This document shows, piece by piece, positions 4,628-60,007 of a stretch of DNA of 64,000 nucleotides. The stretch lies in the NCBI GenBank assembly GCA_014360205.1, contig JACIXZ010000003.1, forward strand, positions 1 through 64,000, read 5' to 3'. Source of the DNA: Tissierellales bacterium (GTDB taxonomy: Bacteria > Bacillota > Clostridia > Tissierellales > Tissierellaceae). Both the position numbers and the translations under genes were made by a program. A model generated the notes under the pieces. That model was not told the DNA's origin and ran no database searches. It was given only the letters and a program-made list of their open reading frames with translations. The stretch's first letter is position 1. Each line of letters starts with the position of its first letter.

Positions 4628-4664
4628 AAATAAGGTAAGTAACGTCTAGTTACTTACCTTATTT
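4628..4664 (-). terminator. Hairpin at the coaX/dusB junction
   Basis: A perfect 16-bp stem (4628-4643 with 4649-4664) has a 5-base loop containing the coaX stop codon. Only three T residues follow on the minus strand before the dusB ribosome-binding site, so it may act as an attenuator or mRNA-processing hairpin rather than a full terminator. Confidence 0.5.
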
Positions 4665-5428
4665 CTTTCATATATTATCCTTAAACCTTCTAGTGTTAAA
4701 TACTTATCCACGACTTTTATTCTCTTAGTCTGCGCAGAAATCAGATTAGCAAATCCTCCAGTAGCTACTACCATAACTTCATCAGGATTTTTATCCATTT
4801 CTTCTATCATTTTTTCTATGATGTAATCTATCATTCCCGCAAAACCATAAATAAGCCCAGATTGGATGCTTGTAATAGTATTTCTCCCAATTACTTTCTC
4901 AGGTTTAGTAATCTCTACCTTAGGCAGCTTAGCAGTTCTTAAGAACAATGCCTCAGCAGAAATATTTATCCCAGGTGTTATAACCCCACCTAAATATTCC
5001 CCTTGTTCATTCACATAGCAAAATGTATTAGCTGTACCAAAGTCTACAATTATAACTGGACCACCAAATTTCTCATAAGCTGCAACTGCATTGACTATTC
5101 TATCAGCTCCGACTTCTTTTGGATTATCGTATTTGATATTCATACCCGTCTTTACCCCTGGTCCTATTACAATAGGTACTTTATTGAAATATCTTTGTGA
5201 CATTGCTGGTAAAGTATGCATTAGTGTCGGAACTACAGAAGAAATGATTATATCATCTATATCTTCTCTTTTGATATTGTCATACTTAAAAAATTGATCA
5301 AATAGCAATCCATATTCATCAGAGGTTTTTTCTTTATCAGTGGCAATTCTTCTATCATAAACCAATTTATTCCCATCATAAACTCCAAATACGATATTAG
5401 TGTTTCCTACATCTATAACCAATAACAA
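4646..5428 (-). CDS. coaX: Type III pantothenate kinase
   Basis: Phosphorylates pantothenate in the first step of coenzyme A synthesis. It is an ASKHA-fold enzyme with DVGNTN near the N-terminus, [16 protein letters not shown] in the middle, DFGTANTF as the second phosphate loop, and GGVITPGI. I prefer the TTG at 5428, because AAGGTGA lies five bases upstream and the protein then begins [11 protein letters not shown] as in the family; an ATG at 5449 that overlaps the preceding stop codon is the alternative. It directly follows an ECF transporter gene, which supports pantothenate as that transporter's substrate. Confidence 0.95.
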
Positions 5429-6192: not shown

Positions 6193-6319
6193 TTTATACC
6201 TCCGCTCTAGTTCCTTTTGGATACCAGTCGATATTCCAAATTTTTATTATAGTCTGGCTCTTACAGATGCCAGCTTGTTAACAAGATAATTATACATATT
6301 TAGAAATAAATATACAAGA

Positions 6320-38954: not shown

Positions 38955-39153
38955 AATTGAAAATTAGACGATGAAGGACTTTATTAGAATATATGATGTG
39001 CTTTTAGAGAGCTAGTGTTTGGTGGAAACTAGTAGCAGTCAAGTATTCGAATTACAATCTGGAGTTTTGAGGTTTTCACACCATACGTGTATGAGGCTTT
39101 AAGCGAATTAAGGTGGTACCACGGGTCTTCTCGTCCTTTAGATGAGAAGACCC
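38955..39153 (+). promoter_or_regulatory. Tyrosine T-box riboswitch
   Basis: A tRNA-sensing leader that lets tyrS be transcribed when uncharged tRNA-Tyr accumulates. Visible parts: the AGAGAG motif and GGTGGAAACTAG of stem I (about 39006-39032), a candidate tyrosine specifier TAC at 39053-39055 followed by CTGGAG, the 14-base T-box core AAGGTGGTACCACG (about 39110-39123), and the terminator 39123-39153. The start is set from the promoter and is approximate. Confidence 0.92.
39123..39153 (+). terminator. T-box regulated terminator
   Basis: Perfect 10-bp stem GGGTCTTCTC/GAGAAGACCC followed by TTTATTTTATTTT; its 5' arm overlaps the end of the T-box sequence, as expected for mutually exclusive antiterminator and terminator. 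Confidence 0.92.
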
Positions 39154-57301: not shown

Positions 57302-57322
57302 CCCAAACAAATTATGTTTGGG
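57302..57322 (-). terminator. Hairpin/terminator after the DUF5317 gene
   Basis: Stem CCCAAACA/TGTTTGGG with a 5-base loop, overlapping the DUF5317 stop codon and followed by GTACATATTTTTA on the minus strand; a weak-to-moderate terminator before the Mur ligase gene. Confidence 0.5.
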
Positions 57323-57872
57323 ATAAATTATTTAACATCTCTTTCTGAAAAAACACAAAAACACCTGCCATAATGAAAATATCCCCTATGCTGATTATTT
57401 TGGGTAGAGGGTATGGCTTAGGTATAGTTATAATGTCAGCAAGAATAAAAAATTTAGTATCTTCATCTGCTGGAGTATGTATAATATCATATTCTCTCTC
57501 TTCTATTACAGTTTCATCAATATCCAATTTAGGAGAAAAATAAACTGGCATTTTCCCACCATTTGCCATTATAACAATAAAGTTTAATAATATGCCAATC
57601 ATAAATAATTTCATGTATACTTTTTTTATATTTAATAGTGAAGTGATAATCAATAAAACATAGCTTAAAAAAATAATATGAAATGAATAATTGCTAACAA
57701 AATATTTGATCTCTGAAGAAGTACTATTATTTAATAAACCAAATAATCCTTGTAAAAGAAAAGCTCCAACGAAAAGAAAATATCCCTTAAAAACAACATT
57801 GGAAAGATTTCTAAATTTTCCACCTCTTAGTTTTGCTATTATAATTGATATTAAGGAAGGTTCTAAAAACAT
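57312..57872 (-). CDS. DUF5317 family membrane protein
   Basis: A 186-residue protein with about five hydrophobic segments (near 30-45, 65-82, 90-108, 135-150 and 160-175) and the family segment VIMANGGKMPVYF (about 98-110). Function is unknown. It starts one base after the HD-GYP stop codon, so translation is coupled. I recall DUF5317 proteins next to HD-GYP genes in other Clostridia, which needs a neighbourhood search to confirm. Confidence 0.8.
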   Translation of the reverse strand: MFLEPSLISIIIAKLRGGKFRNLSNVVFKGYFLFVGAFLLQGLFGLLNNSTSSEIKYFVSNYSFHIIFLSYVLLIITSLLNIKKVYMKLFMIGILLNFIVIMANGGKMPVYFSPKLDIDETVIEEREYDIIHTPADEDTKFFILADIITIPKPYPLPKIISIGDIFIMAGVFVFFQKEMLNNLSQT

Positions 57873-57873
57873 A

Positions 57874-59121
57874 TCACACCTGCTGATTAATCATATTTAT
57901 AAAAGTTTCAACTAATTTAGGATCAAATTGTGTTCCAGAGTACTTTTTAAGCTCTTCTATTGCCATCTCCTTTGTCAATGCTTTTCGATAAGGTCTATCA
58001 GTTGTCATAGCATCGAAAGTATCTGCAATCATAAGAATGCTAGCCTCTATAGGTATCTCTTCACCTTTTAATCCATCAGGATAACCAGTACCATCATATT
58101 TTTCGTGATGGTGTCGGACAATTTTTGTGACGTCACTTAAGAAATTAACTTTACCAATTATGTCAGCACCAATAGTTGGATGTTTCATAATTATTTCATA
58201 TTCTTCTTTTGTCAACTTTCCAGCTTTATTTAATATTTCATCTTTAATCCCAATTTTGCCTATGTCATGAAGCACAGCAGCTGTTCTTATGTTTTCAATA
58301 CTATCAAAGGAAAGATGAGAAGCTTTTGCAAGTCCCACTGCAAGTTCTTCTACTCTGTTGGCGTGTCCACTTGTATAAGAATCTTTTGCTTCGACAGCTT
58401 TATTTAATGCTTGAATAGTTGAAATATATAAATTTCTCATATCTATGTATAATTTAAATGAATATCTTGCAAGTAATAATGGGCCAAAGAACAGTATAAC
58501 TGCACCATACCCATAGCTTATAAAAGCGAGAGCAATAATTATGCCTATTGTTCCTACAGCTATAGAATTTAGAAATGTGCCTCTGATGTTACCCATCCAT
58601 GTATTAGTTATAGAAGTTCCACTTGATAACCCTAAAAATACAGATATAAAAAATGTATTTACTAGCACACCTATAGCAACTATAGCTAAAGTCGGAAATA
58701 ATGAAAAATCGCTGATTTGGCCTCCAGTATTTAAATATGCCAATCCCATGATTCCAGAAACTAAGATGCTTTGTACTACATTAAACAATGTCTTATGTGC
58801 CGGCAAATTAAACAAATGAACATAACCTCTTCCTTCAATCTTAGGGAATCTAAATAAGACCCCTAATGATGTAGCAGTAGCAGCCAGCAAAGGTCCTCCA
58901 ACTATAACCGTAGCTACATTTATGGCATATCCAACCGACACACCGACTGTGTTGTTTGGTAGGGGTATGAGTAAAGATTCCACAGCTATAGCTAGAAAAG
59001 TCCAGAATATATACATGGATATATTGTCTATTCTGTAATTATTAAATATATATATATATAGACTAATTGCCAATATACTTAGTACTAACAAATAAACTTT
59101 GGTCTTTAAATTTAGTTTCAT
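57874..59121 (-). CDS. Membrane HD-GYP domain protein, predicted c-di-GMP phosphodiesterase
   Basis: About 415 residues. The N-terminal half (1-230) has about seven membrane helices and resembles a sensory MASE-like domain, not a known receptor. The C-terminal half is HD-GYP: AVLHDIGKIGIKDEILNKAG with the HD pair (near 280), MKHPTIGADII, RHHHEKYDGTGYPDGLKGEEIP with the GYP motif, and ADTFDAMTTDRPYRKALT. Predicted to hydrolyse cyclic di-GMP in response to a signal across the membrane. TGGAGG decides the ATG at 59121. Preceded by the small-ORF cassette. Confidence 0.92.
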   Translation of the reverse strand: MKLNLKTKVYLLVLSILAISLYIYIFNNYRIDNISMYIFWTFLAIAVESLLIPLPNNTVGVSVGYAINVATVIVGGPLLAATATSLGVLFRFPKIEGRGYVHLFNLPAHKTLFNVVQSILVSGIMGLAYLNTGGQISDFSLFPTLAIVAIGVLVNTFFISVFLGLSSGTSITNTWMGNIRGTFLNSIAVGTIGIIIALAFISYGYGAVILFFGPLLLARYSFKLYIDMRNLYISTIQALNKAVEAKDSYTSGHANRVEELAVGLAKASHLSFDSIENIRTAAVLHDIGKIGIKDEILNKAGKLTKEEYEIIMKHPTIGADIIGKVNFLSDVTKIVRHHHEKYDGTGYPDGLKGEEIPIEASILMIADTFDAMTTDRPYRKALTKEMAIEELKKYSGTQFDPKLVETFINMINQQV

Positions 59122-59160
59122 AAAATCCTCCATATATATAAAATGCCGGCTAGATATTTA

Positions 59161-59238
59161 CTAGATTAAAGTATAGTTTGCGCCTGCTGCTAATGCAAGT
59201 GCTAAAACGCTTAGCAATATAGTTGCGATCTTTTTCAT
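59161..59238 (-). CDS. 25-residue secretion-signal-like small ORF
   Basis: ATG at 59238 with AGGAGG nine bases upstream, 25 codons, TAG at 59161. The peptide is Met-Lys-Lys, a hydrophobic core IATILLSVLALALAAG, and a C-terminal hexapeptide ANYTLI. It looks like a signal peptide carrying a very short mature tail, as in the precursors of enterococcal pheromone inhibitors, or a tiny membrane protein. It has no Cys, so it is not an AgrD-type cyclic peptide. Lies 39 bases before HD-GYP, on the same strand. Translation is not proven. Confidence 0.65.
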   Translation of the reverse strand: MKKIATILLSVLALALAAGANYTLI

Positions 59239-59298
59239 CGAATATAGCCTCCTTCATAGAGTACTCTGCTTATCCGCTAGTCAAGCATGCTATATTCG
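59239..59298 (-). promoter_or_regulatory. RBS-proximal hairpin before the small ORF
   Basis: Ten-base perfect arms CGAATATAGC (59239-59248 and its complement at 59289-59298) flank a 40-base loop. The 3' arm on the minus strand occupies the spacer between AGGAGG and the ATG, so the stem would hide the start site. The loop contains the palindrome AGAGTACTCT and a GCTT/AAGC pairing. Confidence 0.55.
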
Positions 59299-59346
59299 CT
59301 CCGCTAATTTTTAATTTCTTCGCTTAAATTTAGCCGGCATTTTAGG

Positions 59347-59961
59347 CTATTTTGTTAAAAACCTATTGATTGAATCTAAGGTAGCTTTTGCTACAGAGAC
59401 ATAATAGTCATTTTTTACTACACTAGATCCTGATAATATAATTTCCTGCCCATTTATTAGACTTGAAACTAATACAACGACTACCTGCACTCCTGCTATG
59501 GTAATATTTCTTATATCTTCAACTATAAATAAATCATTTATTCCTAAAGAGTTTTCTACAGCCATGACCGTACATTCTGCAAGCATTCTTTCAATATTTC
59601 TATAAGAATTAACACCTGTTTTATACCCTACAAATTCTTCATCAGCTTTTAGAATACTCACCTTTATGTTTGCTTTATTCCCAGATGTTTCTTTAGAAAT
59701 TCCATTTAATTTTAATCTAGGTTTTATTTTTCTAATATCTATGTCATCTAATTGAGCCACACTAATTTTTCTGTGATCAATTCTATAATCGAAATTAGCC
59801 AATAATACTGATTCTACATCTCTAGCAATTTGCTTAGGATTTCTTGTACCATTGGAAACAATATGGATTTCATCAATATGACTATCCTCACCAATTATTA
59901 TTTTACTTGAAATCACCGAATCGATTTGTTGTAAATTTTCTTCAATAATTTTATGATCCAT
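59347..59961 (-). CDS. Conserved-looking protein of unknown function
   Basis: A 204-residue soluble protein with no signal peptide or membrane segment. Notable parts are DEIHIVSNGTRNPKQIARDVESVLLANFDYRIDHRKISVAQLD (about 30-72), and a C-terminal hydrophobic strand AGVQVVVVLVSS followed by SVAKATLDSINRF. I recall similar sequences in other Clostridia but no assigned function. The ATG at 59961 is chosen on GGGGGA. First gene of the run that includes the small ORF, HD-GYP and DUF5317. Confidence 0.8.
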   Translation of the reverse strand: MDHKIIEENLQQIDSVISSKIIIGEDSHIDEIHIVSNGTRNPKQIARDVESVLLANFDYRIDHRKISVAQLDDIDIRKIKPRLKLNGISKETSGNKANIKVSILKADEEFVGYKTGVNSYRNIERMLAECTVMAVENSLGINDLFIVEDIRNITIAGVQVVVVLVSSLINGQEIILSGSSVVKNDYYVSVAKATLDSINRFLTK

Positions 59962-60007
59962 ATTATCCCCCACAATTAAGAATTTAGTGACAATTCACTA
60001 TATATAG

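Follow-up and report, generated by a model that had tools for sequence, protein, structure and literature searches.

A short peptide gene lies directly ahead of a membrane HD-GYP gene

The window, by which we mean the whole 64,000-nucleotide stretch of DNA that was analysed, carries on its minus strand a gene for a peptide of 25 residues, MKKIATILLSVLALALAAGANYTLI, at 59161..59238 (stop included), which consists of MKK, 16 hydrophobic or small residues and ANYTLI. The gene begins with ATG and is preceded by the Shine-Dalgarno sequence GGAGG (59248..59252, minus strand), placed 9 nt before the ATG, with its last base inside the RNA helix P2 described below. A sequence-only reading of this DNA had reported a short ORF with a ribosome-binding site, the layout of MKK, a 16-residue core and ANYTLI, and an adjoining HD-GYP gene, and each of these was found again on renewed inspection. 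The HD-GYP gene, at 57874..59133 on the minus strand, encodes a membrane c-di-GMP phosphodiesterase with a membrane domain (residues 1–236) followed by the HD-GYP domain. Its longest ORF opens 27 nt past the peptide stop codon; the likelier start is the ATG at 59121, with a GGAGG of its own.

Two partner genes and an RNA structure, all missed in the sequence-only reading, complete the locus. P208, an uncharacterised gene directly upstream (59347..59973, minus strand), probably starts at ATG 59961, which has its own Shine-Dalgarno sequence, rather than at the longest-ORF start. On the other side of the HD-GYP gene lies a gene for a DUF5317 membrane protein (57312..57872, minus strand; PF17248, 121.4 bits). 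Elsewhere in the window, Rfam matches mark the 5' end of a 16S rRNA gene (1–97), a pan motif (6199–6276) and a T-box leader (38962–39141).

The peptide ORF is conserved and under purifying selection

Orthologues of the HD-GYP protein were picked by protein search alone, disregarding the peptide. In a first set of 60 relatives, 52 gave a match and loci were taken for the best 30; 26 of these were usable, the other four (L033, L035, L037, L038) having no N-terminal match or no upstream DNA. A second set of 291 genomes of the class gave 35 with a match at E 1e-70 and 30 loci, 27 of them new; hits in five genomes came without a locus, and four of these were later read as L163, L167, L216 and L217. 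At all 53 protein-selected loci (26 + 27) a short ORF lies between P208, where that gene is in reach, and the HD-GYP gene. The sequence-only reading, which had regarded the peptide as being without homologues, was therefore wrong on this point, and the check it had proposed, a search for a homologous ORF ahead of orthologous HD-GYP genes, came out in favour of the peptide. ORF and Shine-Dalgarno sequence are intact together in 52 of the 53 loci; in the exception, L036, a short tandem duplication parts the ORF from its Shine-Dalgarno sequence. The genome concerned, G054, has two copies of the element, L036 and L184, the latter with an intact ORF near a contig end. The most deviant versions are a divergent 21-mer in L107 and a 39-residue peptide in L020, where the RNA core has decayed. 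When protein- and RNA-selected loci were pooled, the ORF was present in 142 loci, representing 102 distinct elements, and absent from none, with 11 loci unreadable through a cut, an N run or a missing N-terminal match.

Substitutions between 14 pairs, which reuse no genome and whose independence was not checked on a tree, gave a pN/pS of 0.22 and a dN/dS of 0.15 (pS 0.438, pN 0.094), with 62, 17 and 109 differences at codon positions 1, 2 and 3. The same bases read in the other two frames gave pN/pS values of 0.81 and 2.00, and random placement of the changes gave 0.95 (range 0.70–1.26, minimum 0.57 of 300). Single pairs vary, and the L023/L028 pair has 0 synonymous and 2 other changes. Among pairs of 25-mers the tail (codons 21–25) is less constrained than codons 2–20, with a pN/pS of 0.31 vs 0.15. 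The peptide ORF is real and under purifying selection, and the codon-level constraint that the sequence-only reading had asked for is present. That reading had also cautioned that short hydrophobic ORFs can arise by chance, an explanation that would be possible for an ORF seen in one genome alone and in a window as rich in short ORFs as this one. The worry is not borne out by the comparative data, in which the ORF, its position, its codon constraint and the RNA structure around it are all conserved; we reject a chance ORF without function as exceedingly improbable.

The element recurs across Bacillota

A covariance model built from the leader alone, containing no coding sequence, matched 53 of 249 genomes of the order, 37 of 391 genomes sampled from the class and 15 of 398 sampled from the phylum. 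There is one copy per genome except for the two in G054, so that 52 of the 53 genomes of the order are single-copy. Of 39 leader hits that were read, 32 lead straight into a peptide of like layout; in L059, L070 and L091 the peptide begins and is cut by the contig end, L076 is the duplicated copy, L090 is the divergent 21-mer already noted, and in L079 and L103 a peptide start that was initially missed was present in the same genomes on later reading. Twenty more order-level hits gave the peptide in 18 cases, the site being taken up by an N run in L199 and a contig end in L202, and all 13 hits outside the class have P208, the HD-GYP gene and the peptide. The element accompanies the HD-GYP enzyme in about a hundred genomes, spans many Bacillota families and, where the flanks are readable, nearly always occurs with the peptide and the module.

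Two loci, L042 (labelled Candidatus Eisenbacteria) and L046 (labelled 'bacterium'), retain P208, the HD-GYP gene, UAGCGAAGCG twice and P1, and encode a dissimilar peptide of 20 residues (MFFFRFFYDILLFGTKTGWE in L042, locus 4650–5030). Their contigs are GC-rich, and horizontal transfer, mislabelling or deep ancestry are all possible.

A structured RNA surrounds the peptide cistron

A 17-nt inverted repeat (59139–59155 and 59328–59344) flanks the whole ORF, and RNAalifold applied to 25 elements folds it into a long-range stem, P1, around the entire cistron, together with a helix, P2, over the spacer between Shine-Dalgarno sequence and AUG, and a hairpin, P3. All of these features lie on the minus strand. 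The 5' arm of P1 (59328..59344) stands just past the P208 stop codon; the 3' arm (59139..59155) starts 5 nt past the peptide stop and ends just ahead of the HD-GYP start, leaving the HD-GYP Shine-Dalgarno sequence of the window uncovered. In P2, the 5' strand CGAATATAGC (59289..59298) pairs across the start region with GCTATATTCG (59239..59248), which fills the spacer between the Shine-Dalgarno sequence and the ATG of the peptide gene. P3 (TGCTT/AAGCA, 59267..59287) presents in its loop the second copy of a UAGCGNA motif (59273–59279); the first conserved copy, UAGCGNAG (59299..59306), lies just ahead of P2 in alignment columns that are invariant or nearly so. That the N is identical in both UAGCGNA copies looked like co-variation within Tissierellales, and this idea was dropped as it does not hold strictly over the 102 elements.

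Compensatory changes occur in 10 of 10 pairs of P1, in which 92.8% of cells are paired, and 5 of the 6 pairs of P3 have changed on both sides. Over the whole structure, 93.7% of cells pair, vs 84.1% in shuffles and 29–41% in slid controls, a comparison that favours the structure over its slid versions because it was derived from the alignment on which it was tested. Both-side changes are found in 17 of 23 counted pairs (RNAalifold gave 25, and two within the ORF, with no compensatory change, were omitted), and none of 500 shuffles attains any of these measures. The leader alone, separately aligned, gave the same P2 and P3, and the minimum-energy fold of the window sequence holds P1, P2 and P3. 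Since the single-sequence z-score of the window RNA is only modest (−1.85; 9 of 200 shuffles fold as well), the support for the structure is comparative. Across 41 loci, P1 arms have a median pairing energy of −23.4 kcal/mol with their own partner vs −15.6 kcal/mol with swapped arms, and P1 beats 95% of its own shuffles in 34 loci and fails to do so in 7. A repeated mobile element framed by inverted repeats was considered and rejected: the genome of the window contains a single full copy, and the co-variation of the arms is that of an RNA stem.

In Rfam, the window stretch had no match up to E 5; at gathering thresholds, 13 loci gave tRNA only, and at up to E 1, 8 loci gave only rli52 and MIR4208, neither of which reached its gathering score or fell within the element. 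The rli52 match lies at 416–498 of L128, with 45 bits vs a gathering score of 70.

The RNA may itself be the main actor, the two UAGCGNA copies forming the basis of a riboswitch or of a protein-binding site and perhaps being read by P208, with the peptide a mere output or a product resembling a type I toxin. P208 stands ahead of the RNA in 40 of 40 loci, and the RNA reaches beyond the peptide sequence: L042 and L046 keep the RNA features with their dissimilar peptides, suggesting that the RNA predates the peptide sequence or is under tighter constraint. A dN/dS of 0.15, however, shows that the peptide product matters, and single copies in a fixed gene order are unlike mobile toxin-antitoxin loci. 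We consider this explanation improbable.

The position of P1 raises another alternative, in which the short ORF is a ribosome-arrest leader: the nascent, signal-like peptide would act as a monitor of export or of insertion into the membrane, P1 would be opened by a ribosome that stalls or terminates, HD-GYP translation would change as a result, and the free peptide would have no role. Arrest peptides are likewise constrained at the amino-acid level, and the conserved L-A-G-A stretch may have an arrest role. The 3' arm of P1 in the window, lodged between the peptide stop and the HD-GYP start, is suitably placed, and there are precedents for a conserved uORF lying within a structured RNA, such as the odc1 motif (PMC8632094). 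Against an arrest leader, the C-terminal codons, which should be fixed, are less constrained than the core and encode 87 distinct tails, the gap from peptide stop to HD-GYP start ranges from 25 to 95 nt over 25 loci, and the HD-GYP Shine-Dalgarno sequence of the window is outside P1. This alternative, too, appears unlikely, if marginally less so than one in which the RNA is the main actor.

The peptide combines a constrained core with a diverse short tail

The 102 distinct peptides typically follow one plan, with K or R, a hydrophobic core, L-x-L-A-[GAS]-G-A and a tail. Sixty-five are 25 residues long, and 100 have K or R within residues 2–6. The motif [AGSTC]-G-[AS] occurs near the C-terminal end of 97, with A as its last residue in 94 of these; the five peptides without it, which are left out of the tail counts, have S for G (L171), A for G (L194) or cannot be aligned (L042, L046, L107). 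Measured from the motif, the tail has 5 residues in 80 of 97 peptides (4 in 6, 6 in 4, 7 in 4, 10 in 2 and 19 in 1), and 29-mers with a longer N-terminal part still carry a 5-residue tail. An F, W or Y is found in 95 of 97 tails, W standing at tail position 4 in only 65. There are 87 distinct tails among the 97, and such diverse, less constrained sequences are as would be expected of a diverging signal.

The lowest entropies are 0.57, 0.52, 0.65 and 0.20 at residues 14, 16, 17 and 20, where residues 19 and 20 are partly fixed by the chosen motif; outside the motif, conservation is highest at L14, L16 and A17. Counted without the motif, G occupies residue 19 in 97 of 102 peptides. This pattern would fit either the c-region of a signal peptide or a helix-packing face. 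The chosen motif itself partly dictates the small residues at −3 and −1 and the G at −2; the signal-peptidase rule does not account for a near-invariant G, which would suit helix packing. For a clostridial signal peptide, the N-terminal part, of about 20 residues, is short. The sequence-only reading had likened the layout to that of pheromone precursors; the layout is conserved and would be compatible with putative export and cleavage by signal peptidase, after which a variable tail of about 5 residues would remain.

The same features could mark a membrane microprotein, that is, an uncut single helix that packs through its L-A-[GAS]-G-A face on the HD-GYP membrane domain and stabilises or inhibits the enzyme, much as MgrB acts on PhoQ as a membrane microprotein. 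The entropy minima at residues 14, 16, 17 and 20, the G at residue 19, the constrained core and the strict linkage with the HD-GYP gene all favour such a role. The tail, however, is kept at 5 residues in 80 of 97 peptides in spite of N-terminal parts of varying length, and in closer pairs the core does not follow the membrane domain, as set out below. We regard a microprotein as a serious contender that is nonetheless rather less than likely.

The HD-GYP enzyme, P208 and DUF5317 form a module

The HD-GYP protein of the window matches HD_5 with 149.4 bits, and H289 D290, H318, H342 H343, G350 Y351 P352 and D371 are invariant among 41 HD-GYP sequences. We take these to be the HD, HH, GYP and metal-ligand residues, and their conservation is as expected of an active HD-GYP phosphodiesterase. 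The membrane domain appears MASE9-like: MASE9 (PF20972) scored 16.8 bits in the window protein, below its cut-off of 24.3; among orthologues, L159 reached 28.3, above the cut-off, L151 and L165 scored 24.0 and 23.9, and L142 and L133 were unlisted.

A structural model of the membrane domain (pLDDT 93.6) resembles ECF S-components: in a structure search its first 22 rows were S-components and CbiM-type proteins (Z 9.9–13.7; S-component alignments of 153–191 residues, 9–18% identity), and the next fold was Lnt, at Z 8.4. In the fold search used, Z values of about 14 can be reached by mostly helical models that lack a true match; for this predicted likeness we rely on the unbroken run of one family in the top rows. 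Foldseek gave a best E-value of only 5e-3 for the same domain. S-components bind vitamins and metals, so the ligand of the membrane domain may not be a peptide.

P208 lies upstream of the HD-GYP gene and the RNA in each of the 40 loci fetched and has no Pfam family at E 0.001 and no NCBIfam family. Its model (pLDDT 91) has two predicted domains. The N-terminal part resembles CDF C-terminal and PrgK ring domains (Z up to 8.8) and an adenylation domain (9.1), scores in the range where common arrangements fall, and the C-terminal part of the predicted model resembles the LeuA/citramalate-synthase regulatory domain (Z 10.8, 116 aligned residues, rmsd 3.0). Foldseek listed double-stranded-RNA-binding domains among its matches, with poor superposition. 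We draw no function from these fold matches; P208 is a candidate RNA reader or small-ligand binder.

DUF5317 lies downstream of the HD-GYP gene in 37 of the 40 loci, the exceptions being L152, L154 and L161. In L157 (7204–8826) and L164 (7220–8956) the DUF5317 proteins have 541 and 579 residues, with long C-terminal parts that have no Pfam match at E 0.1, and L156 has two DUF5317 genes in tandem.

Tail divergence may track the membrane domain

Next, we compared peptide distances with those of the partner proteins, using 88 of the 102 elements, or 65 with a DUF5317 control, and omitting those without a usable protein. Tail distances follow those of the membrane domain with a partial rank correlation of 0.313 (840 pairs) once HD-domain and P208 distances are removed, a value that depends on an analyst-chosen threshold, as do those below, and on pairs from related genomes that are not independent. 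Random sets of five variable columns reached 0.313 in 5 of 300 cases for the HD domain and 0 of 300 for P208, and 148 of 300 sets from the membrane domain did so as a positive control. Over all pairs the partial correlation is 0.271, reached by 5 of 300 HD-domain and 3 of 300 P208 sets; among the closest pairs (threshold 0.40) it is weaker, at 0.225, reached by 21 and 32 of 300. With DUF5317 as the membrane control (threshold 0.45) it is 0.234, reached by 6, 4, 10 and 11 of 150 sets from the HD domain, P208, DUF5317 and hydrophobic DUF5317 columns, respectively; over all pairs the corresponding value is reached by 3, 2, 9 and 16 of 150.

No comparable link exists between the tail and DUF5317 or P208 distances, and the link with the HD domain is weaker (0.136 at 0.50, 0.127 over all pairs, −0.003 at 0.45). 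The core, which should track the membrane domain if the peptide acted as an uncut packing helix, fails to do so in the closer pairs, with partial correlations of 0.025 (0.45) and 0.062 (0.40), but gives 0.228 over all pairs. That tail divergence tracks the sensor membrane domain is suggestive only.

A candidate peptide input to c-di-GMP turnover

The explanation we favour, tentatively, is that of a dedicated exported or membrane peptide that serves as an input to a c-di-GMP phosphodiesterase and whose translation is under RNA control. The stretch of about 205 nt between P208 and the HD-GYP gene would be transcribed as a structured RNA, in which P1 would insulate the peptide cistron from its neighbours or process it, and P2, by holding the Shine-Dalgarno/AUG region, would control peptide translation and hence the amount of peptide. 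Once made, the peptide would enter the membrane through its signal-like core. A cut, most likely after the conserved G-A, would free about 5 hydrophobic or aromatic residues (here NYTLI), and this tail or, failing that, the whole membrane peptide would be the ligand of the S-component-like HD-GYP membrane domain, its binding setting c-di-GMP breakdown. The analysis shows the conservation, the coding constraint, the RNA structure, the module and the conserved catalytic motifs, and predicts the S-component-like fold; in this scheme we infer export, the cut and binding, as well as which way the effect runs and what P208 and DUF5317 do. A released or exposed tail is favoured as the sensor ligand because of the tail diversity, its held length, the small residues that precede it, the link to the membrane domain and the predicted pocket-type fold; together, the S-component-like fold of the model and the co-variation of the tail lean towards a peptide-sensing c-di-GMP switch.

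A more far-reaching proposal is a new, phylum-wide class of signalling modules, in which a cassette of structured RNA codes for a pentapeptide-like pheromone that the cells make themselves and that binds extracellularly to a vitamin-transporter-like (S-component) domain fused to a c-di-GMP phosphodiesterase, with P208 the likely RNA reader. We consider this version doubtful; if it were true, c-di-GMP would directly reflect the density of the cells or their own export state. To our knowledge, the ligands of most c-di-GMP enzymes are unknown, and dedicated, gene-encoded ligands of such enzymes would be rare. Here a candidate ligand, receptor and control RNA sit in one gene cluster in many Bacillota families, so that what an orphan membrane c-di-GMP enzyme senses becomes directly testable with short synthetic peptides.

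Comparison with known systems

The peptide and the RNA gave nothing above cut-off in Rfam, Pfam and NCBIfam as searched, and the peptide-RNA cassette with its enzyme is a promising candidate for a bacterial signalling system not previously described. In the open-licence PMC literature, no description of the module was found by title or abstract start among the papers listed and no mention of DUF5317 was found, and MASE9 was absent among the matches listed. AgrD, Phr, AimP, LptM and lipoprotein identities were tried for the peptide and rejected, matches being sub-threshold or lacking. Specifically, the AgrD model was unmatched by 25 members and 10 further peptides, and the tails of the 102 peptides contain no Cys, the AgrD-type ring residue; LPAM_1 (Pfam) matched the window peptide only below threshold, with 11 bits vs a cut-off of 20.

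Among RNAs, according to the accessible part of PMC8632094, the odc1 motif is structured and contains the ribosome-binding site of a short ORF that is conserved, and the present RNA likewise holds the start site of one. The odc1 and other uORF RNAs treated there, however, belong to other phyla and partner genes, and here a long-range stem surrounds the full cistron; the present element was not found in the accessible parts of PMC8632094 or PMC11109978. The enzyme resembles MASE9-HD-GYP phosphodiesterases in its HD_5 match and in the MASE9 match of L159, and differs from them in its fixed partnership with P208, the peptide cassette and DUF5317 and in the S-component-like fold predicted here. 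With the ECF S-components RibU, BioY, FolT and ThiT it shares the predicted membrane-domain fold; in contrast to them, an HD-GYP domain follows, sequence identity is low, and transport is not implied.

Closest in layout are systems in which a small precursor is encoded beside the protein that it controls. In Rap-Phr systems the active peptide is short, variable and C-terminal. The present locus shares with Rap-Phr and other RRNPP systems a short precursor of exported type, as its sequence would suggest, beside the protein it would control; the likeness to Phr_nterm (TIGR04429) is weak, 16 of 25 members matching at E up to 1 (best E 0.003). Unlike in Rap-Phr, the window peptide scores 14.2 bits vs a Phr_nterm cut-off of 25, the partner is a membrane HD-GYP enzyme and the gene lies within a structured RNA. 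The Pfam families in the window proteins are HD_5, HD and a weak MASE9 in the HD-GYP protein and DUF5317 in the next gene, and no TPR domain (Pfam) was found in the window HD-GYP, P208 and DUF5317 proteins or in five other HD-GYP orthologues.

Enterococcal inhibitor and sex pheromone precursors and streptococcal SHP have about 21–25 residues, are nearly all signal sequence and carry the active peptide at the C-terminus, and the present peptide resembles them in size and layout. It departs from lipoprotein pheromones of the cAD1 type in having Gly at the place of the lipobox Cys in 97 of 102 peptides (L163 has a Cys one residue ahead of this place). Export of SHP is treated in the accessible part of PMC10075063. 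In contrast to the enterococcal and SHP systems, there is no Rgg/PrgX-type partner among the named neighbours, and the gene sits in an RNA cassette. By analogy, the present system would work like Rap-Phr or the enterococcal and SHP precursors, yet it differs from them in its partner, in its model scores and in the lipobox.
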